Below are positions 784 to 34,099 of a stretch of DNA of 34,315 nt, one piece after another. Below the pieces are notes generated by a model that had not been told where the DNA came from, made no database searches, and saw only the letters and a list, made by a program, of their open reading frames with translations. The stretch lies in IMG/VR virus record IMGVR_UViG_3300021085_000109, positions 1 through 34,315 of that record, one strand, 5' to 3'. The translations under genes were made by a program, and so were the position numbers. Source of the DNA: a virus. Positions within the stretch are counted from its first letter, which is position 1. Each line of letters begins with the position of its first letter.

Positions 784-821
784 TTTTGTCTTGCACATGA
801 CATATTTTATCTATATGTTTG
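784..821 (+). promoter_or_regulatory. Bacteroidota-type promoter for the early operon
   Basis: TTTTG at 784-788 and TTG at 791-793 supply a -33 element. TATGTTTG at 814-821 matches the -7 consensus TAnnTTTG exactly. The TTG is 20 bases from the -7 box. The ERF ATG is at 826, only 4 bases after the -7 box, so the transcript may be leaderless or nearly so. Confidence 0.65.
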
Positions 822-825
822 TTGT

Positions 826-1389
826 ATGAAAAATCTAACAAAGAAGTTGGTGCGAATTCAAGGGAGTTTGAAAGCACCTAAAAATCAAAGGAATAACTTT
901 GGTAATTACAATTACAGAAGTTGTGAAGACATCTTAGAAGCAGTAAAACCATTACTAGCAAAAGAAGAGTTGTTATTAACAATTACTGATTCTATTGCTC
1001 CAGAACCTTTATTTGTTAATGCAGTTGCAGAGATCACTGACGGTGTAGACAAAATACAAGTCAGAGCTCAAGCAGGTATTAACTTAAATCGTAAGGGAAT
1101 GGATGTAGCTCAATGCTATGGTGCATCAAGCAGTTATGCTAGAAAGTACGCTTTAAACGGCTTATTTTTAATTGATGATACAAAAGATGCAGATGCTACT
1201 AATAATCACGCTAACACGTCTAAAAACGCCTCTACGGCTGTCTTAGAGCCAAATAAAGATTGGTTAGAAGACAAAGGAGACAAGTTTGATAAAGCTAAAC
1301 AAGCTATAAAAGAAAAAGGTTTTACTATCACCGATATTAGAAAAAAATATAAAGTAAGTAAGAAAGTAGAGAAATTATTATTAACCTAA
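826..1389 (+). CDS. erf: ERF family single-strand annealing protein
   Basis: A protein of 187 residues. The region 20-120 matches the ERF superfamily: NFGNYNYRSCEDILEAVKPLL near the N terminus, and the conserved GMDVAQCYGASSSYARKYAL at 91-110. ERF proteins form rings that anneal complementary single strands during phage recombination and end circularisation. The C-terminal part (about 125-187) is lysine-rich and more variable, perhaps a protein-binding tail. The ATG at 826 is preferred over upstream in-frame starts because those would lie inside the terminator and promoter. It heads the early operon, followed by an SSB-like gene, which is a usual partner. Confidence 0.85.
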   Translation: MKNLTKKLVRIQGSLKAPKNQRNNFGNYNYRSCEDILEAVKPLLAKEELLLTITDSIAPEPLFVNAVAEITDGVDKIQVRAQAGINLNRKGMDVAQCYGASSSYARKYALNGLFLIDDTKDADATNNHANTSKNASTAVLEPNKDWLEDKGDKFDKAKQAIKEKGFTITDIRKKYKVSKKVEKLLLT

Positions 1390-3830: not shown

Positions 3831-4099
3831 ATGCTAACCAAAAAAAGATTGTCTCTCAAATCAGAGAGGTAGGATGCTCTGTCCTCCACACTCACCAATT
3901 AGGCAAAGGTGCTCCTGATATTATAGTAGGATATGCAGGTAATAATTATCTTATAGAAATTAAAGACGGAGATAAACCGTTAGCACAACAAAAACTAACA
4001 CCAGACGAAATAAAGTTTCAAGCTGAATGGCAAGGTAATTATTATGTTGTGAATTCATTTGATAAACTTAGAGACATAATATTTAAAGATGAGCTCTAA
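3809..4099 (+). CDS. VRR-NUC-like PD-(D/E)XK nuclease
   Basis: A protein of 96 residues. The motif GKGAPDIIVGYAGNNYLIEIKDG (32-54) supplies the catalytic Asp37, Glu50 and Lys52 of the PD-(D/E)XK fold, in the compact arrangement of VRR-NUC domains. Phage members are thought to act as Holliday-junction or flap nucleases that resolve recombination intermediates. It begins inside the end of the primase-helicase gene and its stop overlaps the sigma-like gene, so the three are translated together. Confidence 0.82.
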   Translation: MRKRARVDANQKKIVSQIREVGCSVLHTHQLGKGAPDIIVGYAGNNYLIEIKDGDKPLAQQKLTPDEIKFQAEWQGNYYVVNSFDKLRDIIFKDEL

Positions 4100-4658
4100 G
4101 ATATTAGACATATTAGCTAAGAGACACGATGAGTGGATTAAAATGGCTAAAAGCTTTAAGCTAAACAATAATGATGCAAAGGAGTTAGTTCAAGAGATGT
4201 ACCTTAGAATGTATAATTACACTAAGGATGTAAATCGTATTATGTATAATGATAATGAAATAAATACATTTTACATTTATATAACATTAAGGAATTTGTA
4301 TTACAGTAATTATACAAACTATAAAAAGAAAAAAAAGATTACTGTATTTACAGATATTGATGATGAAAAATACAATTATATTATTAATAATATAGCGTAT
4401 AATGAAGACGAGATATTACACAATTATAATAAGAAAATTGATCTTGAGGCATTATATAATAAAATAGATAATATAATAGACGATTGGTATTGGTACGATA
4501 AAAAATTAACTAAGTTGTATTTGAATACCGAAATGAGTATGCGAGACATAAGCAAAGAAACTAAAATAAGTTTAAGTTCAATATTTAATACATTAACAAA
4601 TGCAAAAGAAAAAATTAGACAAGAAAGCAAAGAAGAGTACAAAAAGTACAAAAGCTAA
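4089..4658 (+). CDS. RNA polymerase sigma-factor-like protein
   Basis: A protein of 189 residues. The N-terminal part (12-78, with NNNDAKELVQEMYLRMYNY) resembles sigma region 2; the C-terminal part (137-176, YDKKLTKLYLNTEMSMRDISKETKISLSSIFNTLTNAKEKI) is a sigma region 4-like helix-turn-helix. Between them is a long acidic and Asn-rich linker. It could redirect host RNA polymerase to middle or late phage promoters. The region-2 match is weak and very rich in Asn, Tyr and Lys, so a sigma-derived regulator is also possible. The next gene starts 59 bases before its stop. Confidence 0.65.
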   Translation: MSSKILDILAKRHDEWIKMAKSFKLNNNDAKELVQEMYLRMYNYTKDVNRIMYNDNEINTFYIYITLRNLYYSNYTNYKKKKKITVFTDIDDEKYNYIINNIAYNEDEILHNYNKKIDLEALYNKIDNIIDDWYWYDKKLTKLYLNTEMSMRDISKETKISLSSIFNTLTNAKEKIRQESKEEYKKYKS

Positions 4659-5001
4659 AGGTTTAGGCGATACAGTCGAACAAGTGTTAGAAGCTACTGG
4701 AATAGCTAAAGTAGCTAAGTGGGCACTTGGTGAAGATTGTGGCTGTGATGAACGTAAAGCTAAACTAAATTACTTATTCCCTTATTATCAGCCAGAGTGT
4801 TTAACGGAAGACGAATACAATATTTTAGATAAATATTATACTGAGGCAAAACCAACTGTAACGCCAGAAAAACAACAAGAGTTACTTACTATATACAATA
4901 GGGTTTTTCATCAAAAAATGAATTTAACAAGTTGTTCGTCATGCTTTAAAAACAACTTACATAAGAAATTAGAACGAGTGTATAAAGAATATAATATATA
5001 A
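4600..5001 (+). CDS. Conserved phage protein with paired cysteines, function unknown
   Basis: A protein of 133 residues with a very lysine-rich N terminus (1-20), a Gly/Ala helix (21-43), then CGC at 47-49 and CSSC at 112-115. The two Cys pairs could bind zinc or form a disulfide. The start ATG is inside the sigma-like gene; a 59-base overlap is unusual, but no other ATG precedes the conserved-looking block KGLGDTVEQVLEATGI. I recall similar proteins in Bacteroidota phages without known role. Function is not predictable. Confidence 0.6.
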   Translation: MQKKKLDKKAKKSTKSTKAKGLGDTVEQVLEATGIAKVAKWALGEDCGCDERKAKLNYLFPYYQPECLTEDEYNILDKYYTEAKPTVTPEKQQELLTIYNRVFHQKMNLTSCSSCFKNNLHKKLERVYKEYNI

Positions 5002-5153: not shown

Positions 5154-5183
5154 TTGTATAAGTCATTTCTTTTATTAACTTTG
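5154..5183 (+). promoter_or_regulatory. Bacteroidota-type promoter before the lipoprotein gene
   Basis: TTG at 5154-5156 and TAACTTTG at 5176-5183 (exact TAnnTTTG) are 19 bases apart. Transcription should begin near 5189, shortly before the ATG at 5205. Confidence 0.65.
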
Positions 5184-6225: not shown

Positions 6226-6417
6226 ATGGAAAATGAATATTTAGATTACTTAGATTGTTATGAAGACACTCTATTATGTCTAAAGAAAAGAGTAATAACA
6301 GAAAACGAAATACCTATATTAATCGAGCAATACGAATTAGAAGAGCATTATGAATGTTGCAGTGCAATGTTACACGCTTTAGAGGATTACAAAGCTCATC
6401 AAAATTATTTAACATGA
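6226..6417 (+). CDS. Small acidic hypothetical protein
   Basis: A protein of 63 residues, acidic, Tyr- and Leu-rich, with several Cys (11, 18, 44, 45). It starts directly after the nuclease stop codon and its TGA overlaps the next ATG. No family recognised. Confidence 0.6.
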   Translation: MENEYLDYLDCYEDTLLCLKKRVITENEIPILIEQYELEEHYECCSAMLHALEDYKAHQNYLT

Positions 6418-6827
6418 TTTCACCAAAACACATAATAGAAAAAATAGTTGAACTATCTAGGATCAATGTATTTGAGAATACTAGAAAAAGAGAATATGTA
6501 GAAGTACGATCTTTATTAAATCATATACTTTATAATCACAAACGAATGACTTTGTTTAGAATTGTAAGAATATATAAAAAGTATGGATGGGAAGTTAATC
6601 ACGCTACTATATTACATTCATTAAGAACTTATGAGGTTCATAAGAATTACAATAAAGATTTAATAGTATGGGAACAAAAGATTGTTGACAAAATAAACAA
6701 AATGGATAATTATAGTAAAAGAGAATATATTAAAAGCAAAGTAAATTATCTTAACAATAAAGACGTTGATGAGTTAACTATGGTTATTAGCAATATGGTT
6801 GATAAAGAATTACAGTATGCAGAATAA
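6414..6827 (+). CDS. DnaA domain IV-like DNA-binding protein
   Basis: A protein of 137 residues from the ATG at 6414, which overlaps the preceding TGA. Residues 25-75 resemble the C-terminal DNA-binding domain of DnaA: RKREYVEVRSLLNHILY, then MTLFRIVRIYKKYGWEVNHATILHSLRTY. The NHATILHSLRTY block corresponds to the DHSTVLHA signature that contacts DnaA boxes. The ATPase domain is absent. The protein could bind host or phage origin sequences, to start phage replication or interfere with host replication. The C-terminal 60 residues form a charged helical tail. Confidence 0.65.
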   Translation: MISPKHIIEKIVELSRINVFENTRKREYVEVRSLLNHILYNHKRMTLFRIVRIYKKYGWEVNHATILHSLRTYEVHKNYNKDLIVWEQKIVDKINKMDNYSKREYIKSKVNYLNNKDVDELTMVISNMVDKELQYAE

Positions 6828-8712: not shown

Positions 8713-9210
8713 ATGAAGATAGGAAACGTTTACATATTAGACAAGTACGAACAACAAATTGTTGAACTAAGTGCATATCAAAGAGATAAAAACAAAAGGG
8801 ATACAGGTTGGCATGGACATAAAACAGTAAACGAAACTGGAGAGTTAGATTTAGATATAGTTGGGTTCGGTGCTGAGTTTATATTTTGTAGAGAACTAAA
8901 TCTATACCCTGACTTTAAAATACATAATACGTCTAAAGTAAATGGCACTGACAATTATGATGCAATTTACAAAGGCAAAACTATTGATGTGAAAGTTAAT
9001 AGAAATTATAAAAATCCTTTGATGATACCTGCCTATGCTAAAACAGATTGTAATTTGTTTGCTCTGTTTAGTTGCATATACCCTAGATATAGATTTGAAG
9101 GGTTTGCCACAAACGAGATGGTTTTTGATAAATCTAAACTGAGAATGACTAGAGTCATGGCTTATGTTACTGAAAAAACAGATTTATTAGAGATAACTCA
9201 AGTTTTTTAG
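8713..9210 (+). CDS. Putative PD-(D/E)XK endonuclease
   Basis: A protein of 165 residues. The blocks GFGAEFIFCRELNLYPDF (51-68, Glu55) and DNYDAIYKGKTIDVKVN (80-96, Asp83, Asp92, Lys94) give a plausible E...D...DxK active site of the PD-(D/E)XK fold. It follows the terminase gene by 3 bases and is the last gene before a regulatory gap. It may act in packaging or in attack on host DNA. The specific substrate is not predictable. Confidence 0.6.
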   Translation: MKIGNVYILDKYEQQIVELSAYQRDKNKRDTGWHGHKTVNETGELDLDIVGFGAEFIFCRELNLYPDFKIHNTSKVNGTDNYDAIYKGKTIDVKVNRNYKNPLMIPAYAKTDCNLFALFSCIYPRYRFEGFATNEMVFDKSKLRMTRVMAYVTEKTDLLEITQVF

Positions 9211-9264: not shown

Positions 9265-9296
9265 TTTGTCAGTTGGAGAATTAATTACTATATTGA
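9265..9296 (+). promoter_or_regulatory. Promoter 1 with CAGTTGGA box
   Basis: TTTG at 9265-9268, CAGTTGGA at 9270-9277, then TATATTGA at 9289-9296 as an imperfect -7 box, with a 20-base spacer. It shares its spacer sequence (GTCAGTTGGAGAATTAATTA) with the promoter at 11673. It probably drives the gene at 9338. Confidence 0.55.
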
Positions 9297-9337: not shown

Positions 9338-9760
9338 ATGCAAACAAACAGATTTAAAAAATCTTTTGGAGGTAGAGAAAAGTTCTTTACTAAAAAAAGT
9401 CAAAAAACAAAAAAGAATCTTTATGTTGGAGATTGTGTAGTGAGAGCAATAGCACACGCTACAAAAAAACCTTATAAGGAGGTTTGGGATCAATTAATGG
9501 ATTTGTCTAAAAAGACATTACAAATGCCAAACGAAGAAATTAATTATAGCTCTTACTTAAAGAGTATAGGTTGGCAAAAACAAAAACCTTTCAGAAATCC
9601 AAACAACAAAACTATAAGGGTTGCTCATTTTCCTGCTGAACCTAGAGGCAAGTATATAATTTCAACAAGAAATCATTTAACTTCTATTGTAAATCGTGTT
9701 CACTTGGATACTTGGGATTGTGGAGGATACAGAGCTAACAGTTTCTGGATTAAGAAATAA
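9338..9760 (+). CDS. Putative papain-like cysteine protease, early region
   Basis: A protein of 140 residues. Its basic N terminus (1-28) is followed by YVGDCVVRAIAHATKKPYKEVW (29-50), where Cys33 at a helix start is placed like a papain-fold nucleophile, then RNHLTSIV (111-118, His113) and VHLDTWDCGGY (121-131, Asp124/Asp127). This Cys-His-Asp order and the motif GDCVVRA recur in phage proteins that look like C39 or NlpC-type peptidases. The catalytic assignment is an inference. It is a single-gene unit with its own promoter and terminator. Confidence 0.5.
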   Translation: MQTNRFKKSFGGREKFFTKKSQKTKKNLYVGDCVVRAIAHATKKPYKEVWDQLMDLSKKTLQMPNEEINYSSYLKSIGWQKQKPFRNPNNKTIRVAHFPAEPRGKYIISTRNHLTSIVNRVHLDTWDCGGYRANSFWIKK

Positions 9761-9800: not shown

Positions 9801-9832
9801 TTTGGTCAGTTGGAAATAATTAACTAGATTTG
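9801..9832 (+). promoter_or_regulatory. Promoter 2 with CAGTTGGA box
   Basis: TTTG (9801-9804), CAGTTGGA (9807-9814) and TAGATTTG (9825-9832, exact TAnnTTTG) with a 20-base spacer. It should drive the cluster of small genes from 9855 onward. Confidence 0.7.
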
Positions 9833-9854
9833 TGTATAACTAATAAATAAAACT

Positions 9855-10031
9855 ATGAAAACAATGAAACAAAGAGAAAAAATAATTGAATTAGCTGATG
9901 GTATTGTAGATTACATTACCGAGCAAATGATTATGCCAAGAATATTTGAAGATTTTGGGCATGAGTTAGAAGCTGAGGAATATGAGGATATATCAAATAA
10001 AGTATATAATCAAATTAAATTAAGAATGTAA
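9855..10031 (+). CDS. Small acidic hypothetical protein
   Basis: A protein of 58 residues, M-K-T-M-K-Q-R-E at the start, acidic in the middle (FGHELEAEEYEDI). It is the first gene after promoter 2, and its TAA overlaps the next ATG by one base. An internal ATG at 9864 is an alternative start. No family recognised. Confidence 0.6.
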   Translation: MKTMKQREKIIELADGIVDYITEQMIMPRIFEDFGHELEAEEYEDISNKVYNQIKLRM

Positions 10032-11672: not shown

Positions 11673-11703
11673 TTTGTCAGTTGGAGAATTAATTATATAT
11701 TTG
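11673..11703 (+). promoter_or_regulatory. Promoter 3 with CAGTTGGA box
   Basis: TTTG (11673-11676), CAGTTGGA (11678-11685) and TATATTTG (11696-11703, exact consensus), spacer 19. The best of the three related promoters; the ATG of the next gene is at 11725. Upstream lies a direct repeat ATAATATT at 11647 and 11664. Confidence 0.75.
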
Positions 11704-11724
11704 TGTAAACTTAAAATAAAAACA

Positions 11725-12177
11725 ATGAGAATATTAGAAACAAAAATTTACACTATTGACGAACACCCAAACAAAGAATTATGTTTTAATTACATTCGAG
11801 ATAATTGGCATCATTTAAACGAACATTCTGTAAATGAAGTATCACAAAGTATAAAAGCATTATCAGAGGTTATTGGAGGAAGCTACAATTATTCAATAGG
11901 ACAATTTGAAGATAGGGGGGAGTTTATCTCTTTTCTTGATTATGATAAAGAAGAGTTAATGAAGTTAAATGCCATAGAATGCCCGTTAACGGGAGTAACA
12001 TGGGATATAGATTTAATTGAAGGAATGCAAAAAGATGATAATAATAAAGTTTTAAATGCATTACATAATCATAGTAGATATGTTTATTCAAACGAGGGTT
12101 TATTAGAATTATGTTTTGCAAATGATTATGAATTTAATGAACAAGGCAAAGCAATATCAGAAGTTGAATATCTATGA
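11725..12177 (+). CDS. Conserved phage hypothetical protein
   Basis: A protein of 150 residues from the ATG at 11725; upstream in-frame codons are inside the promoter. Blocks such as KIYTIDEHPNKELCFNYIRDNWHHLNEHSV and IGGSYNYSIGQFEDRGEFISF look conserved and soluble. I recall similar proteins in phages of Bacteroidota, without a known role. It has its own promoter and is followed by a terminator, so it may be strongly made early. Confidence 0.7.
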   Translation: MRILETKIYTIDEHPNKELCFNYIRDNWHHLNEHSVNEVSQSIKALSEVIGGSYNYSIGQFEDRGEFISFLDYDKEELMKLNAIECPLTGVTWDIDLIEGMQKDDNNKVLNALHNHSRYVYSNEGLLELCFANDYEFNEQGKAISEVEYL

Positions 12178-12284: not shown

Positions 12285-12552
12285 GTTGGATAACTTGCAA
12301 AGCTAAAAACAATAAAAGCAAGAAAGCAAATTAATATTCTTATTTAGAATTAATATAAATTAATAGTTATTAACGAACTTTGTGAATTATTTTATATATT
12401 TGTCATGTTATTGTGGTTGACTTAGTCAGTAAAAGGTCAGAACAGCGTCAACAAAATCAAAACAGCAACAATGCTATAAATTGTAAAAAGGTGTAAAAAA
12501 AGAGCACCTACTCTTAGACAAATCAAAATCTTTATAATTTAAATTAATAACT
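12285..12552 (+). other. Intergenic region with probable promoter and structured leader
   Basis: A 268-base gap without a credible gene. TATATTTG at 12395-12402 fits the -7 consensus, but I see no good -33 element at the right distance. Downstream, GTTGAC (12416-12421) can pair with GTCAAC 25 bases later, and AGGTGT (12489-12494) with GCACCT (12504-12509), so the 5' leader of about 145 bases before the ATG at 12553 may be folded. It could be a regulatory leader or simply untranslated sequence. Confidence 0.4.
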
Positions 12553-14241: not shown

Positions 14242-14265
14242 TCAGATAATTTATATTATATATAT

Positions 14266-14359
14266 ATTACATAGTGTATTATATTACATAATGTATTATA
14301 TTGCATAGTGTATTATATTACATAGTGTATTATATACATAGTGTAATACATAATGTATA
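14266..14359 (+). repeat. Six copies of the ATTACATAGTGTATT palindrome
   Basis: Copies start at 14266, 14283, 14300, 14317, 14333 and 14345; the first four are exactly 17 bases apart. The core TACATA(G/A)TGTATT keeps the inverted repeat. The last two are shifted and overlap slightly. The same element occurs three times at 2019-2076. The array ends 85 bases before the first late gene. Confidence 0.85.
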
Positions 14360-14395
14360 TATACATATATATTACATATATATCTGACATATATT

Positions 14396-14403
14396 CAGTT
14401 GGA
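14396..14403 (+). promoter_or_regulatory. Fourth CAGTTGGA box, before the late operon
   Basis: CAGTTGGA occurs once more 42 bases before the ATG at 14445, but without TTTG at its left or a TAnnTTTG box about 20 bases to its right. It may mark a late promoter read by a modified polymerase, or be a degenerate copy. Confidence 0.35.
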
Positions 14404-14444
14404 ATAAGTAAAGTACAAAAACAATCTAAATTATTATTTATTAT

Positions 14445-15161
14445 ATGGCACTAAAACAAATTGAACTAGAAGTACCAACAACTCTATCTGACATTAAACT
14501 TTGGCAATACCAAAAGTATATGAAAGTAATAGAGCAAAACAAAACAGAAGATGCCGAAGAAAAGGATCAAATAAACGATTTCCTAAACATGAAGCTTGTA
14601 GAAATATTCTGTAACGTTTCATTAAGAGACGTTAGTAGAATACCTTTAAAAGAATACGAAAAGGTGTTATCAATATTAAATAAGGCATTTGAGGAAAAAC
14701 CTAAATTAATACAGAGATTTAATTTATTAGATGTAGATATGGGGTTTATACCTAAACTAGATGACATTACACTCGGTGAATATGTAGATATAGAAAGCAA
14801 TCTTACTAATTGGGAAAAAATGCACAAAGCTATGGCTGTTTTGTATCGTCCTGTTAACTTTAAATCCAAAGATAAATACACTATATCTCCATACAAGGTA
14901 AATGAAGAAATACAAGAGTTGATGAAAGATATGCCATTAGATGTGGTAATTAGTTCAATGGTTTTTTTTTACAGTTTAGGGAAGGAATTACTAGAAGTTA
15001 TACCGAGATATTTGGCACAACAACTGAAGAAAGAGGATATGCAGATGCTAGACAATCATTTGCAAAAAAATGGAACTGGTATCAATCAATTTATGCACTC
15101 GCTAAGGGAGATGTCAGAAACTTCAATGCAGTTACCGAGCTTCCACTCTACCAATGTTTAA
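14445..15161 (+). CDS. Tail assembly chaperone G (zero-frame product)
   Basis: A protein of 238 residues, the first gene of the late operon. It is largely helical, with LDDITLGEYVDIE (about 104-116), then MPLDVVISSMVFFYSLGKELLE and a C-terminal NGTGINQFMHSLREM. The gene continues in the -1 frame as a T-like domain (see the fusion entry), which identifies the pair as functional equivalents of lambda gpG/gpGT, chaperones that coat the tape measure protein before the tail tube forms. Sequence identity to lambda G is not claimed; the assignment comes from the frameshift structure, position before tail genes, and pattern. Confidence 0.75.
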   Translation: MALKQIELEVPTTLSDIKLWQYQKYMKVIEQNKTEDAEEKDQINDFLNMKLVEIFCNVSLRDVSRIPLKEYEKVLSILNKAFEEKPKLIQRFNLLDVDMGFIPKLDDITLGEYVDIESNLTNWEKMHKAMAVLYRPVNFKSKDKYTISPYKVNEEIQELMKDMPLDVVISSMVFFYSLGKELLEVIPRYLAQQLKKEDMQMLDNHLQKNGTGINQFMHSLREMSETSMQLPSFHSTNV

Positions 15162-27667: not shown

Positions 27668-27737
27668 CACTGAATGGGGTGACACTGCAAACGAAAGTAC
27701 ATTACATATCGATTCACAACCAACTTGTTTTGAATAA
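27630..27737 (+). CDS. Small hypothetical protein
   Basis: A protein of 35 residues: MANTIDWAKIYCSTEWGDTANESTLHIDSQPTCFE. The block DWAKIYC...WGD is conserved among small proteins of flavobacterial phages, as I recall. Its TAA shares one base with the fibre start. Role unknown. Confidence 0.55.
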   Translation: MANTIDWAKIYCSTEWGDTANESTLHIDSQPTCFE

Positions 27738-30700
27738 TGGCTACACTTTCGAATACTAAAATAAAAGATACTTATCAGTCGCTTGTTAAGTTTAATGACA
27801 ATGGTAATATAACAACGTCTCCTAAGCGTCTTACAGACGGTTTTGGGAACGTTTCTCCTTTTTATGTATCTACCACACAGGTTGGTATCGGAACGTCTCC
27901 TAACTCAAGCTATGACCTTCATGTTTACGGTAACACTAAAATAGGTGCAAACCTAGACGTTTCTGGTAATTTAACAGTCAATGGTACTTTAACATATTTA
28001 AACGTAACAGATTTAGCTGTAGAAGATCCGCTAATAAAATTAGCAAAAGACAATGACGCTAATATATTAGACATTGGTTTATTTGGTAAATATGCTGTTT
28101 CTACAAATGTTAAGTATAAGGGTTTTTTTAATGATGCTAGTGACGATAAATTCAAAATATTTACAGGATTAACAACAGAACCAACAACAACAGTTGATGT
28201 TAGTGATAGTGGATATACAGTTGGAACTCTTGTGGCTAATGTTGAAGGAAATTTAACAGGAGATGTTACAGGAGATGTTACAGGTGATGTTACGGGTGAT
28301 GTAACAGGTAATTTAGAGGGAAATGTTACTGGTGGCACTATAAGTGGAACAACTGGTACTTTTAGTAGTAATTTTATTATAAATTCTGATAGTTTTGCCT
28401 TTAATGGTACTGCTCCAGTTATGACAGTAAACAGTAGTAACGCTGCATCTGGTTTTAGAATTAACATAACTGGTTTAGATGAGGTAGGAGATTCGTTAAT
28501 TAGATTTCAAGACAACTCTACTACAAGATTTAATATGACAAAAGATGGTAGGATTACTACAATAGGCAATATAGATACAACTTTAGTTATAGACACTAAC
28601 ACAAATGCACAGCCATTAAATATAACTAGATTAGGTATCACCTCTAGTCAAACACTACAAATTGGAATAACTGATACTGTTGCTATTTTTAACTACATAG
28701 AAGATACAAGTAGTGAAGGTACAGGTGTTTTTGGTACTTATAGTTTTAGATTAAGTGGTAATGATGGTGAAGCTACTGTAATACCTTTGACATTAGGTAA
28801 AACAGAATCTACTTTTAGTGGTCAAGTAACTATTCCAGAAACACCAACAGCAGATGCTCATGCAGCATCTAAAAAATATGTTGATGATAATACTGGAAGT
28901 ACTGATTCAGCTAAAAGATTAGAGGTTGATGTTAAAAATGTTCATGGTGCTACTTTAGCAAAAGGTACTGTTGTTCATGCAGAACCCACTGGAACATTAA
29001 GTGGAAATGTTATTGAGGTTGTTGCAGCAGATGCAAATACTCGAATGCCAGCAATAGGTGTTTTAAATGAGGCATTATTAGATGATGGTGAAGGAAAAGC
29101 AGTAATGTTTGGAACTGTACAAGGCATTGATACATCTGGTTTTAGTGTTGGTGATGAGTTATATGTTTCTGCAACTGCTGGGCAATTTACAGCGACTAAA
29201 CCAACTGCAACAAATGAAGAAGTACAAAAGATTGCTATTGTAGTAAAATCTCATGCAAGTAATGGATTAATAAAAGTATTTGGTGCTGGTAGGTCAAATG
29301 ATATACCTAATAGAGTTAATAGGGATATGAATTTTACAGATGATTCTGAATTAACTTTTGGTGATAGCGATGATGCTAGTATTAAATGGGATTCAACAGC
29401 TAGTCAATTGTTTATAGATGGCGAATCTAAGTTTTTAGATAAATTAATTGCAAACAACAATTTTGTAGCTCAAGGTACTGTTGATTTAAATGTAATGCCA
29501 ACTCATCAATCTGAGGGTTCAATAAAAATAGGTAGATATGATGGCAATACAACAAGGTTTCATTTAATAAAAAACTACGTTTCAACAACTCTAGCTAGTA
29601 ATTACATGAAATTTTCACTACATAATGATGTTGATAACGATACAACAGATGTTTTAAGTTTATTTGGTGATGGTAATATTGTTGTGGCTGGTAATGAAAC
29701 TATTGGTAACACAACTATTGAAGCTGATAGAATATTAAAAATTCAAACAGCAGCAGAGTATAATACTGAATTACAATTAAGAGAATCGACTGATAATTAT
29801 GGATTTACTTTAAGGTATGATGGAACTGCAAATCAATTTAAAGTTATAAGACATGATAATAGTGCTGCTGGAGTAGATGTAATTACTATTGGCAGAGGTG
29901 CAAACACAGTAGCGTTTGCTGGTGGTATTACAATGGGTGGTCAACAAATCGATATGGTTAATGGTAACATTGTTAATGTAAATAATTTAACATTTAATGA
30001 TCCTGGCGGTAATGAAGGTATAAATTGGAATGGTGGTAACTTATGGAGAATATTTGAATCACCTAACGACTTAAGTAATGCTTCTGGTAATTTACAATTT
30101 GTTAAAGATACTACAAGGTCAATGACTTTAGATACATCTGGCAATTTATACACTTTAGGTGGTTTAGATGCTGGTAGTGTAATTAGCAGAAATACATTGT
30201 CAGTTACTGGTGTATCTACATTTACATCAAGAGTTGATATGACTGGTACAAGTGGATGGAACTCACCTAGTTATTTTTATGCTGCATATACTCATACTAC
30301 TGGTATGAGAATGGTAGGTAACGAATCTCAAATTGATCTTGTATCACAAGATTTAGGAGAACACTCAGGTTCTCTTTTATTAAGAGGTGCTAATCAAGGT
30401 TTTGGGTTAACAAATAGTATTACAAATAACAGATTAGAAATTAAATATTTTGTAGCAGATGATGATTCATTTACAATACATGGTAGTGGAACAAATGTAA
30501 GTACATTAACAGATGTTGTTTTTTTCAATTCTGATGGTAGTGTTGATTTCAAAAATAATATAAATGTTACTGGAAATACTACTGCTAATGGTTCTTTAAC
30601 TGTAACCTCAGATACTGGTTTAAAAATAAGAACAACAACAAATGGTGTTGGAGCTAAAATAAATTTTAGTGATCATATAACAACTGGAACTTTACAAGAG

Positions 30701-33700
30701 GGTACATTATATTTTGCTCATGCAGACAACACCTCAATAGGTAGTGGTGCCGCTTTTCATTTTGATACTACTGAAACACAAGTTAGTGTTGTATCTGGTG
30801 ATGCTACTAGCGAGGGGAATTTTTTATCTTATTCAAGAGCATCAACAGCAGAGGTTGATTATGGTTTTGTAGCAGATTTAAATACTGGTATGTATCGACC
30901 AGCTAATCATCAACTAGGTTTTGTTGTTAATGGTTCAAGAAAAATACAATTGACCGCTGATGGTGTGTTTATACAAAATGGTTCATTATATGTACAATCT
31001 GGTACTGCCGCAGTTCCCTCATTGCAAATAGGTGATACAGATACTGGTTTTTATGATGCTGGAGCAAATGTAATAGGTATTTCTACTGGAGGTGTTGCAC
31101 AAGCTACATTTGGTTCATCACCTAATGGAACAATACCTTTGAGAGTTTTTGGAAGTGGAGCTACTATTGGCGGAACTACAATGGCAAACTCAACTCTATT
31201 AGTAGGTACAACAAGCGTTGGAATTGGTATTGATTCAAATGAGATAATGAATGTTGGCGACCATTTCTATTTTGGAACGAGTGGAGCAGATAGAGACATT
31301 GTTTTTAGAACACAAGGGAGTGTAAAGCAAATGAGATTATTGCACTCTGGAGAATTATGCTTAGGTACAGATAATTCAAGTGCTGATGCTTTATTAGATA
31401 TTAAAACTCCAGCAGTAGCAGATGGTGGCACACTAGGTGCTAATATTTTGTCATTAATAGGCACATCAGAAACTACATCTACAAGTGGAACTGTAACACC
31501 AACAAATGCAATAGTGTTTAAACCAGCAATGCCAGCTGGATATGGGACAGATGGTTATAATACAGTTTTAGAACAACAATCTGGTGGTGCTAGGGTATTT
31601 TATTTTAGAACATCTGGAGCAAGTCATTTAAGTATTGATGTAGAACATAATGGTATTTTTGGTGGTAATTTAACAGCATCTGGTGCTAGTTCGGTTTTAA
31701 ATACTGGAAATTCTGGTACTTTTGTAACTAGTGATGCAAATAATTATCCTAGAATAACAATAAATAACGGCTCAGTACAATTAGGGTTATTTCGGTCAGG
31801 TTCTAATGCTGGAGGTATGTATATTGGAGCTGATGCAACTGAGTTTTCTTTAAGAAGCGCATCTTTTGCTACACAAATGTCAATTACTCAATCTGGTAAT
31901 ATGGATTTACGGGGTTATATAATATGTGATAACAATGTAATAATAGATGGTGTTGATGCGGCTGGTAATGTAACTGGAACAGATGATCAATTAAGAGTAA
32001 CTGGCTATGGAATAATGGGTAACAGAGCTGGTAATGTTTATATTACAAATGGTAATACTGCTGCTAGTGCTAGTTTAGTATTTGGTGTTAGAGGGGCGCA
32101 CAATGCGAATAATAGATTAATTATTAATGACAATACATCAACCTTTTATACTGATATAACCGCAAGTAATCATGATATTAAAGCAGTAGGTACTTCAACT
32201 AATACAGTTACATCAGAATACGATTCAACACATTATGCTAGATTTGAAGCTAATTCAAGTGGCGGTGTTGTTAAGGGTATTGGCGGTGGTGGTTTTTTGA
32301 TTAGAAGTTATGGCGATACTTATTTTAATGGTGGCAATTTAGGAGTTGCTATTGCTGTTCCAACTAATAACGACTTTGGTTCTGTTCCGCCAAGATTACA
32401 TGTTTTAGGTGCTGGCGCTAATGGTGAATTTAGATTAACCGCAAGGTTTCAAGCTGGTGCAGATGCTGATAATACTGGTGCTGCAATAATTATAAATCAT
32501 TCTAATGATAGAGGTATGGTGCTTGAGGGTGGTCGAGCAAATAGCGATAGGGGTATTGGTCATATAGGATTATCAACATCTGGGGGTGTTCACACTAGAT
32601 TAATTACAATTAAACAGCATAGCAACGATGATTATAGATTTGGTGTTAATGAACAATCACCAAAAGTAGATTTTGATTTTCAGAATTATAGTTCTTCTAA
32701 TGGTCAATCATCAACAATGCGAATTGGTGGTGCAGGTAGTAATGAAAGTTCTAAATTAGAACTAGGTGAATCAATTAATGCCTCTGGTGTAATGACTTAT
32801 GGTTATGCTTTAGTTAATGATGGCTCAGCAAATAAATTTGCAATAACAACACATAATAATAGTGCTGGAGGTGTTAATTCATTTGAGATAGATAGAGTTA
32901 CTGGTAATGTTGGAATTAAAGGAGTTAGTGGTGCTGAGGAGTTACAGGTTAATGGCAATATGTTTTTAACAAACAACAGCTATATAGGTTTTAACACAAG
33001 CGCATCATCTGGACATCCTAAAATTTCAATGGATTCATTAGGTGCTTTTAGTTTTACAAATACAGCAAATTTAGTAGGTTTAAAAATTAATAATAGTGGA
33101 ACTGTTGATTTAAACAATGGAACTGGTCAAACTGTTTTAGTTAAGGGTGGCACAATGAATTTTGGAATACCTGGCAATGGAGCAAATGTAAATGGAAGAT
33201 TCTGTACTATTGAGGGCAATACTGGTACTGATGGCGAAGGTTCTGGTAGAATATTCTTTGCTGAACACAATTCAACAACTGGAGCAAAAAATGCTTATGG
33301 AATGTCACTTGGTTATAGAGGTGGTGGTACATCTTTACCTAGTGGCGTTAATGGCTTATTAACACAAATAGGAAATGGTGAATGGGGTATGTGGGGACAT
33401 AATGGTGTTGATAATGGTACTCTGATAATGTCTGGTACTCGTTCAGCAAGTACATTAAAATTGTTAACTAATTTAGTTGAGACAAAAGCTGTAAACCAAA
33501 GGGTTAAGATTTCAGTATGGTCAGGTTCTACTTATGGTTTTGGTATGCAAACTACTCATACATTTGGTGGGTTAAATGGTTATGCCATAACTTGTCAAAT
33601 GAGCAATACATCAGCAAGAGGTTTTTGGTGGGGTGATACTGGTCATACAAATTCTCAAGGTGCTTTTGCTTGTACCACTCAAGGTAAATTTACAATAGCA

Positions 33701-34099
33701 CATTCACTTAGATTAGGTTATGGAGAAGGTGATACAACATTGCCAGGATCAACATATACTTGTGATGTTTCTGGTACAATAAGAGCCACAAGTGATGTTA
33801 TAGCTTTTTCTGATCGTAGAATAAAAGAAAACATTGTTACTGTTGACAATGCACTAGATAAGGTTACACAATTAAGAGGTGTTACATATACCAGAAAAGA
33901 TATTGATGATAAATCAACTAAAATTGGTGTTATTGCACAAGAAGTTTTAGAGGTGTTGCCAGAGGTTGTAAGTATTGATGATGAGGATAAGCACTCTGTT
34001 GCTTATGGTAATATGGCTGGTGTATTTATAGAAGCTATAAAAGAATTAAAAGCAGAAGTTGATAGTTTAAAACAAGAAATTAAACAATTAAAAAAATAA
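27737..34099 (+). CDS. Giant tail fibre / spike with C-terminal S74 chaperone-peptidase
   Basis: A protein of 2120 residues. The N-terminal region (1-130) has ITTSPKRLTDGFGNVSPFYVST and VSGNLTVNGTLTY, beta-helix-type adhesin pattern, followed by a Gly-Asp/Asn repeat GNLT-GDVT-GDVT-GDVT-GDVT-GNLE-GNVT (171-198). A long Gly/Asn/Ser/Thr-rich body follows. The last 100 residues match peptidase S74, the intramolecular chaperone: SDRRIKENI (2025-2033, Ser2025 the likely nucleophile), GVIAQEVLEVLPEVV, then a coiled coil (2095-2120). The chaperone helps the fibre form a trimer and then cuts itself off. It is the receptor-binding candidate. Confidence 0.88.
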   Translation: MATLSNTKIKDTYQSLVKFNDNGNITTSPKRLTDGFGNVSPFYVSTTQVGIGTSPNSSYDLHVYGNTKIGANLDVSGNLTVNGTLTYLNVTDLAVEDPLIKLAKDNDANILDIGLFGKYAVSTNVKYKGFFNDASDDKFKIFTGLTTEPTTTVDVSDSGYTVGTLVANVEGNLTGDVTGDVTGDVTGDVTGNLEGNVTGGTISGTTGTFSSNFIINSDSFAFNGTAPVMTVNSSNAASGFRINITGLDEVGDSLIRFQDNSTTRFNMTKDGRITTIGNIDTTLVIDTNTNAQPLNITRLGITSSQTLQIGITDTVAIFNYIEDTSSEGTGVFGTYSFRLSGNDGEATVIPLTLGKTESTFSGQVTIPETPTADAHAASKKYVDDNTGSTDSAKRLEVDVKNVHGATLAKGTVVHAEPTGTLSGNVIEVVAADANTRMPAIGVLNEALLDDGEGKAVMFGTVQGIDTSGFSVGDELYVSATAGQFTATKPTATNEEVQKIAIVVKSHASNGLIKVFGAGRSNDIPNRVNRDMNFTDDSELTFGDSDDASIKWDSTASQLFIDGESKFLDKLIANNNFVAQGTVDLNVMPTHQSEGSIKIGRYDGNTTRFHLIKNYVSTTLASNYMKFSLHNDVDNDTTDVLSLFGDGNIVVAGNETIGNTTIEADRILKIQTAAEYNTELQLRESTDNYGFTLRYDGTANQFKVIRHDNSAAGVDVITIGRGANTVAFAGGITMGGQQIDMVNGNIVNVNNLTFNDPGGNEGINWNGGNLWRIFESPNDLSNASGNLQFVKDTTRSMTLDTSGNLYTLGGLDAGSVISRNTLSVTGVSTFTSRVDMTGTSGWNSPSYFYAAYTHTTGMRMVGNESQIDLVSQDLGEHSGSLLLRGANQGFGLTNSITNNRLEIKYFVADDDSFTIHGSGTNVSTLTDVVFFNSDGSVDFKNNINVTGNTTANGSLTVTSDTGLKIRTTTNGVGAKINFSDHITTGTLQEGTLYFAHADNTSIGSGAAFHFDTTETQVSVVSGDATSEGNFLSYSRASTAEVDYGFVADLNTGMYRPANHQLGFVVNGSRKIQLTADGVFIQNGSLYVQSGTAAVPSLQIGDTDTGFYDAGANVIGISTGGVAQATFGSSPNGTIPLRVFGSGATIGGTTMANSTLLVGTTSVGIGIDSNEIMNVGDHFYFGTSGADRDIVFRTQGSVKQMRLLHSGELCLGTDNSSADALLDIKTPAVADGGTLGANILSLIGTSETTSTSGTVTPTNAIVFKPAMPAGYGTDGYNTVLEQQSGGARVFYFRTSGASHLSIDVEHNGIFGGNLTASGASSVLNTGNSGTFVTSDANNYPRITINNGSVQLGLFRSGSNAGGMYIGADATEFSLRSASFATQMSITQSGNMDLRGYIICDNNVIIDGVDAAGNVTGTDDQLRVTGYGIMGNRAGNVYITNGNTAASASLVFGVRGAHNANNRLIINDNTSTFYTDITASNHDIKAVGTSTNTVTSEYDSTHYARFEANSSGGVVKGIGGGGFLIRSYGDTYFNGGNLGVAIAVPTNNDFGSVPPRLHVLGAGANGEFRLTARFQAGADADNTGAAIIINHSNDRGMVLEGGRANSDRGIGHIGLSTSGGVHTRLITIKQHSNDDYRFGVNEQSPKVDFDFQNYSSSNGQSSTMRIGGAGSNESSKLELGESINASGVMTYGYALVNDGSANKFAITTHNNSAGGVNSFEIDRVTGNVGIKGVSGAEELQVNGNMFLTNNSYIGFNTSASSGHPKISMDSLGAFSFTNTANLVGLKINNSGTVDLNNGTGQTVLVKGGTMNFGIPGNGANVNGRFCTIEGNTGTDGEGSGRIFFAEHNSTTGAKNAYGMSLGYRGGGTSLPSGVNGLLTQIGNGEWGMWGHNGVDNGTLIMSGTRSASTLKLLTNLVETKAVNQRVKISVWSGSTYGFGMQTTHTFGGLNGYAITCQMSNTSARGFWWGDTGHTNSQGAFACTTQGKFTIAHSLRLGYGEGDTTLPGSTYTCDVSGTIRATSDVIAFSDRRIKENIVTVDNALDKVTQLRGVTYTRKDIDDKSTKIGVIAQEVLEVLPEVVSIDDEDKHSVAYGNMAGVFIEAIKELKAEVDSLKQEIKQLKK
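28247..28306 (+). repeat. 12-base tandem repeat coding for GDVT
   Basis: Units GGAGATGTTACA at 28259 and 28271, then GGTGATGTTACG and GGTGATGTAACA, preceded by GGAAATTTAACA at 28247. Repeats of 12 bases keep the reading frame, so copy-number change would alter fibre length without breaking it. Confidence 0.85.

Follow-up and report, generated by a model that had tools for sequence, protein, structure and literature searches.

The middle promoters of phage T4, as described in the available part of PMC2988021, carry, just ahead of a host-type -10 element, a phage-specific and non-palindromic MotA box of about 9-10 bp. For phage 7-11 (phiEco32-like), the accessible portion of PMC8948821 gives the promoters of the phage sigma factor gp47 as GTAAtg-16-aCTA. 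On the bacterial side, the F. psychrophilum rule, in the portion of PMC9723704 at hand, places the element TAnnTTTG at -12 to -5. Here we analysed a stretch of DNA, hereafter the window, which comprises the 34,315 bases of an IMG/VR virus record and belongs to a tailed phage; the terminase of this phage shares 52% identity with that of Nonlabens phage P12024L. An 8-mer of this window, CAGTTGGA (the box), is very probably a phage-specific promoter element, and it is likely to be used for activation.

The box occurs five times in the window, on the plus strand only (9270, 9807, 11678, 14396 and 28218), while the expected count has a mean of 0.70 and 0 of 100 dinucleotide shuffles of the window reach five. 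With TTTG one or two bases upstream (TTTG-N1,2-CAGTTGGA), exactly three sites were obtained (9265, 9801 and 11673) against 0 for the control pattern, and Markov sequences of the window contained no such site in 495 of 500 cases and one in the other 5. These three sites are the promoters named by the original prediction, and the window has no others of the kind. P1 (9265..9296, plus strand) is composed of TTTG at 9265-9268, the box at 9270-9277 and the -7 sequence TATATTGA at 9289-9296; it precedes ORF 9338-9760 and is conserved in relatives (e.g. L040, L053, L067 and L071). A DUF5843 family protein (8713-9210) is encoded immediately upstream of P1. P2 (9801..9832, plus strand) has TTTG at 9801-9804, the box at 9807-9814 and TAGATTTG at 9825-9832, with a predicted +1 at 9837 and an ATG at 9855 (+18). 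Similarly, P3 (11673..11703, plus strand) has TTTG at 11673-11676, the box at 11678-11685 and TATATTTG at 11696-11703, with a predicted +1 at 11708 and an ATG at 11725 (+17). The -7 boxes claimed for all three promoters agree with the consensus in P2 and P3, where TAnnTTTG follows a TTG about 19-20 nt upstream, while P1 has only the imperfect TATATTGA. The copy at 28218 was rejected as a promoter, being ordinary coding sequence inside a long tail-fibre-like ORF (27737-34099). For the four promoter copies (9270, 9807, 11678 and 14396), an origin by chance or as coding sequence was rejected.

A further promoter, at 12379..12402 on the plus strand, reads TTTG-N12-TATATTTG. At the corresponding place L015, L023 and L033 carry TTTGTCAGTTGGA, and by this comparison 12379-12402 is a promoter formerly of the TTTG-box type that has lost its box. 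It is followed by a noncoding leader (about 12404-12540) with a close match in L015 and L033. A 17-mer of the leader was found in 4 of 238 loci, one of which (L003) is from the window itself; the leader had no Rfam match and folded no better than its shuffles (z -0.44).

To follow the box beyond the window, relatives were collected with the terminase as a query, which gave 80 loci (788,684 bases; 824,336 when L084 is added). In these loci the box was found 105 times in forward and 0 times in reverse orientation, while ten Markov replicates gave 5-16 forward copies. The copies lie almost entirely downstream of terL (102 of 105; the 3 upstream represent one coding position in three loci), and the searched sequence upstream of terL was the longer one (398,716 vs 293,316 bases downstream). 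Frequent copies inside unrelated coding sequence had been named beforehand as a result that would speak against the box; this was not seen, 92 of the 105 copies being not fully inside an ORF of at least 60 aa. The commonest noncoding 8-mers with at least four G+C are GTCAGTTG, CAGTTGGA and TCAGTTGG, present in 64, 63 and 61 of the 80 loci. The relatives are redundant, 110 sites being reduced to 66 distinct contexts.

Because sites selected by the box make the box look conserved, host-type promoters were also collected blind to it, as noncoding TTTG-N19/20-TAnnTTTG in the window and the 80 loci. Among the 26 distinct promoters obtained, CAGTTGGA is present in 16 and CAGNTG[GC]A in 19, and near variants are found in two more (both in L038). 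The remaining five comprise three (L026, L024 and L045) that are like the window's 5176 promoter, one (L029) like its early promoter at 814, and one (L077, position 94) near the end of its locus. Additionally, exact boxes persist in L209, L211, L212, L213 and L215, whose sigma-like protein (see below) is only 45-49% identical. It might be supposed that the word persists merely by shared descent, the promoters being duplicated and young, and P2-like promoters are indeed near-identical in many relatives. However, the flanks vary while the eight bases persist in those five distant loci, and the control blind to the box also argues against this explanation, which we consider hardly credible. The original view that the box serves the small-gene region and sits in front of the late operon held for the window, but in a sister clade (L209, L212, L213 and L215) it also precedes the early operon, with the sigma gene about 3.6 kb further downstream.

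Viral contigs scanned for TTTGGTCAGTTGGA gave at least 119 stretches. Among the matches listed, contexts that resemble the promoter come from the clade of the present phage (loci with homologs of this phage), and those lacking such homologs look like coding sequence or chance; 71 contexts with a G+C-rich downstream and no homologs were removed from the listed matches by script. For sigma relatives at most 40% identical (L216-L231), no promoter-context box was found in the available DNA, and a tblastn search (E 0.01) of a 50,697-record phage collection detected no relative of the sigma-like protein. CAGTTGGA was not found in the ten best-matching papers of the open literature.

A host sigma factor or a host regulator might instead read the box, and the promoters do otherwise follow the sigma-A pattern TAnnTTTG of F. 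psychrophilum (available part of PMC9723704). Against this, the full arrangement gave one match among 299 Flavobacteriaceae genomes, a set which was centred on a genome reached via a weak partial match and which may not include the host of the phage, and in genome G001 TTTG-N1,2-CAGTTGGA occurs 4 times vs 3 for the control pattern. A host promoter class was thus rejected as far as these genomes reach, and a host reader appears very improbable. A genome scan for prophages and host relatives yielded three loci, with no clear box-clade prophage among them.

The geometry of the element was examined in 122 distinct A+T-rich contexts of [GT]CAGNTG[GC]A, which include some coding matches and in which, as in the 19-sequence and 67-locus counts below, some contigs stand under more than one locus id. 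TTTG lies 1-2 nt upstream of the box in 71 of the 122, and 69 of these 71 have a -10 element at a gap of 9-11 (at least 4 of 6 matches to TAnnTTTG), with the full TAnnTTTG in 40. The box has a core of TCAG-N-TG, and 10-11 bp separate it from the -10 element downstream. By the F. psychrophilum rule, as far as the available part of PMC9723704 states it, the box occupies -30 to -23 or one base further, with its centre at about -27. By a crude tally of 57 contexts, the first ATG coincides with the predicted start or follows it by one base in 9 and lies at +17/+18 in 32, which agrees with the predicted start sites being real. In seven contexts (e.g. L042), a -7-like sequence follows only 5 bp after the box, mostly with TTTG 7 nt before the box, and this spacing is possibly a second arrangement. 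In L213 (17601) and L215 (17305), CAGGTGGA stands right behind a TATATTTG box and is followed by an inverted repeat, GTGGAaaaTCCAC, off the promoter geometry.

The fourth box was originally described as bare and as lying before the late operon. It does lie there, and P4 (14384..14419, plus strand), in which CTGACATATATT at 14384-14395 is followed by the box CAGTTGGA at 14396-14403 and TACAAA at 14414-14419, is not of the Bacteroidetes sigma-A type, having TACAAA in place of TAnnTTTG and no TTTG at the -33 place; it is not bare, since the TACAAA is conserved at the same spacing. The late ORF downstream starts with the ATG at 14445. We aligned 19 late-promoter sequences, the window included, by the first late gene, which revealed CTGACA...CAnnTG-N10/11-TACAA in 18 of 19, L061 having an ATGACA variant. 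TACAA lies 30-31 nt from the start of the late motif, which places it 10-11 nt downstream of the box, and the ATG is 61-62 nt from the motif start. The box itself is looser at the late site (CAGGTGGA, CAGATGAG and CAGTTGAG), and L213 has a diverged form of the site that the motif search did not match. In this way, the position and the spacing of the box both survive where the host -33 and -7 sequences are absent, and the box at 14396 is, on the evidence of this alignment, part of a real and conserved late promoter. TACATAGTGTATTATAT repeats, possibly origin or regulator sites, are found just upstream of the late promoter (14263-14358, with a 17-nt period) and also at 2018-2085, downstream of the replication-initiator-like ORF 1715-2020.

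A site between -33 and -7 is in the classical operator position. As a repressor operator, the box would block the host polymerase until the repressor is removed, or would close the promoters late, and the near-consensus host boxes beside it suit such a role, as does its possible sliding by about 5 bp in L042-type sites, which a repressor tolerates. However, the site is not palindromic, its orientation is constant and its spacing mostly so, and the late promoter keeps the box without host boxes, which is the opposite of what repression needs; an operator function is therefore improbable, and we rank it below activation by a protein of the MotA kind. In the latter case, another phage protein would bind the box and aid the host sigma-A polymerase, which would still read the -7 element. 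The non-palindromic and spacing-locked site and the host -7 retained in P2 and P3 are consistent with this, and proteins that might do so (1715-2020, 1404-1664, 4600-5001 and 6226-6417) occur in many of the genomes with the box. In T4, the MotA box is centred at -30 and is followed after 12 +/- 1 bp by the -10 element (available part of PMC2988021), and the spacing of 10-11 found here, centred at about -27, is nearer to that than to the 16 of phage 7-11 (accessible portion of PMC8948821), which makes a MotA-like activator the main rival of the sigma reading described next. It is nevertheless rather unlikely: none of the 10 proteins each run against PHROGs and Pfam resembled MotA or AsiA, MotA boxes take the place of the -35, but here the host -33 remains next to the box, and P4 has no TAnnTTTG -7 to be read.

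The early genes, the sigma-like gene among them, follow box-less host-type promoters, and the boxed promoters follow the terminase. The early promoter (814..828, plus strand; -7 sequence TATGTTTG at 814-821) stands before the early operon, whose ATG at 826 coincides exactly with the predicted +1, 12 nt past the start of the -7 box, so that the operon appears to be leaderless. The second, '5176' (5154..5183, plus strand), reads TTG-N19-TAACTTTG.

The candidate reader that we tentatively prefer, at somewhat less than an even chance, is the 189-aa sigma-like protein encoded at 4089..4658 on the plus strand, of ECF type and with two domains. It has a weak match to the sigma factor family PHROG 1740 (E 1.7e-4) and no Pfam family match, and the best matches of its PDB profile search are sigma factors (E 0.05). 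An AlphaFold2 model built from a 45-row alignment (pLDDT 81, pTM 0.41) shows two helical domains of uncertain mutual placement, and sigma factors, most of them ECF, lead its structure matches in the PDB (best Foldseek E 4.5e-3). Superposition gave Z 9.3 and 2.8 A over 71 residues for region 4 of sigma-E on -35 DNA (2h27) and Z 8.7 and 2.2 A over 71 residues for SigR region 2 (1h3l), although the structure tool itself cautions that a Z of 9-10 is not a strong score between helical proteins. Both a region 2 and a region 4 fold are thus recognised in the protein, with moderate confidence (pTM 0.41). In the recognition helix (residues 160-177), most positions are invariant and the mean share of the commonest residue is 0.97 vs 0.80 in the sigma2 core across 39 box-clade rows (including L208 and L210, short contigs with no box seen in either), and several of its positions differ in six box-less rows. 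All 67 loci in which primase and terminase are both present also have the gene; in the same loci the partner ORF 4600-5001 was found in 65, the HTH protein 1715-2020 in 57 and the DnaA-like protein in 38. The terminase and replication genes have about the same spread as the sigma-like gene, and common descent accounts for part of the covariation between this gene and the box, which is support rather than proof.

Several observations count against the sigma reading. An alternative sigma factor would not need the host -33 and -7 boxes of P1-P3, and variant boxes (CAGATGGA and CAGTTGCA) occur in some relatives whose recognition helix is unchanged. The L042-type sites, with only 5 bp between the box and a -7-like sequence, also speak against it. 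The canonical ECF spacing does not fit, since the TA shared by the -10 elements lies 18-19 nt past the start of the box, and this misfit weighs against the sigma reading. The gap of 10-11 is shorter than the 16 given in the accessible portion of PMC8948821; region 4 would need to extend several bp beyond its usual reach in the downstream direction.

Neighbouring genes were considered as well. The partner ORF (4600..5001, plus strand) overlaps the sigma-like gene and has a conserved Cys; in distant phages, P12024L among them, it stands next to homologs of the sigma-like gene, and a homolog lies near a weak sigma match in Flagellimonas onchidii (L234). Its model reached a pLDDT of 70, falling below 50 for residues 1-46, and gave no meaningful PDB match. 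The product of 6354-6827 resembles the DnaA C-terminal HTH (PF08299, E 0.061, below the cut-off) and is patchy in relatives. A DnaA-domain-IV-like reader would suit an asymmetric site, but it was rejected, being present in only 38 of 67 loci and not found in L204, L064, L207, L061, L211 and L212; exact promoter boxes are present in L061, L211 and L212 of these, and in L204, L064 and L207 only box variants or a coding copy were seen.

Taken as a conserved promoter element, as the original prediction proposed, the word has a fixed orientation and spacing and serves the region behind the terminase, the late operon included. What the DNA itself offers is this fixed geometry, the post-terminase position, the conservation and the near absence from those genomes of the host family that were searched, and on these grounds a group of uncultured viruses of marine Bacteroidetes-type bacteria is seen to mark its later-acting promoters with a word at a fixed distance from the start of transcription. 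The word probably lets a virus-made regulator, most likely a sigma factor of its own, switch on the later genes. The host RNA polymerase with host sigma-A would read the box-less early operon (recombinase, primase, sigma and terminase). The early product 4089-4658, perhaps with its overlapping partner 4600-5001, would then read the box via its region-4-like helix-turn-helix and direct the polymerase to P1-P3, whose host-type boxes would also permit some basal reading, while P4, without host boxes, should depend fully on the box. We give this joint explanation, an early box-less operon followed by a sigma-like protein that switches the later promoters, an even chance. A stricter form of it, doubtful on present grounds, is a dual reading in which host sigma-A is the first to use the starts of P1-P3 and the phage ECF-type sigma later takes them over, the late promoter being box-only; the hand-over of sigma would be written into overlapping promoters, and region 4 would lie unusually close to the -10 element.

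For a widespread uncultured clade of Bacteroidetes-type phages, these results suggest a transcription programme of host-type early promoters and marked later ones. With the mark, the sequence alone is enough to sort promoters and genes by when they act, and a specific candidate regulator is indicated. The boxed promoters are also a naturally occurring collection that combines a phage element with a complete, overlapping host promoter. The element probably takes part in the switch from early to later genes. It would be a variant of known phage transcription take-over, and a new principle only if phage and host sigma are shown to overlap in their reading.

Compared with the T4 middle promoters, the promoters found here likewise have a phage-specific and non-palindromic box near a host-type -10 element and act after the early genes. 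However, CAGTTGGA takes the place of the MotA core TGCTTtA, the gap is 10-11 instead of 12 +/- 1, and the late promoter shares the box (T4 features from the available part of PMC2988021). Also unlike T4, TTTG at -33 stays beside the box in P1-P3, being absent only at P4. Neither MotA nor AsiA turned up among the 10 proteins each searched against PHROGs and Pfam. With phage 7-11, as described in the accessible portion of PMC8948821, they share a phage sigma(-like) gene and a bipartite, phage-only promoter before later genes, and differ from it in the spacing (10-11 vs 16) and in the overlap of the element with host-type promoters. Structure matches of 4089-4658 include the GAP52 sigma. Like ECF sigma factors, the model of this protein matches region 2 and region 4, and unlike them the protein has no Pfam match and, compared by eye with sigma-E, presumably lacks the usual arginines in its recognition helix. 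Finally, P2 and P3 have both elements of Bacteroidetes sigma-A promoters (-33 TTG and -7 TAnnTTTG) at the N19-20 spacing, whereas a fixed 8-mer fills part of the spacer, and P4 has neither element.
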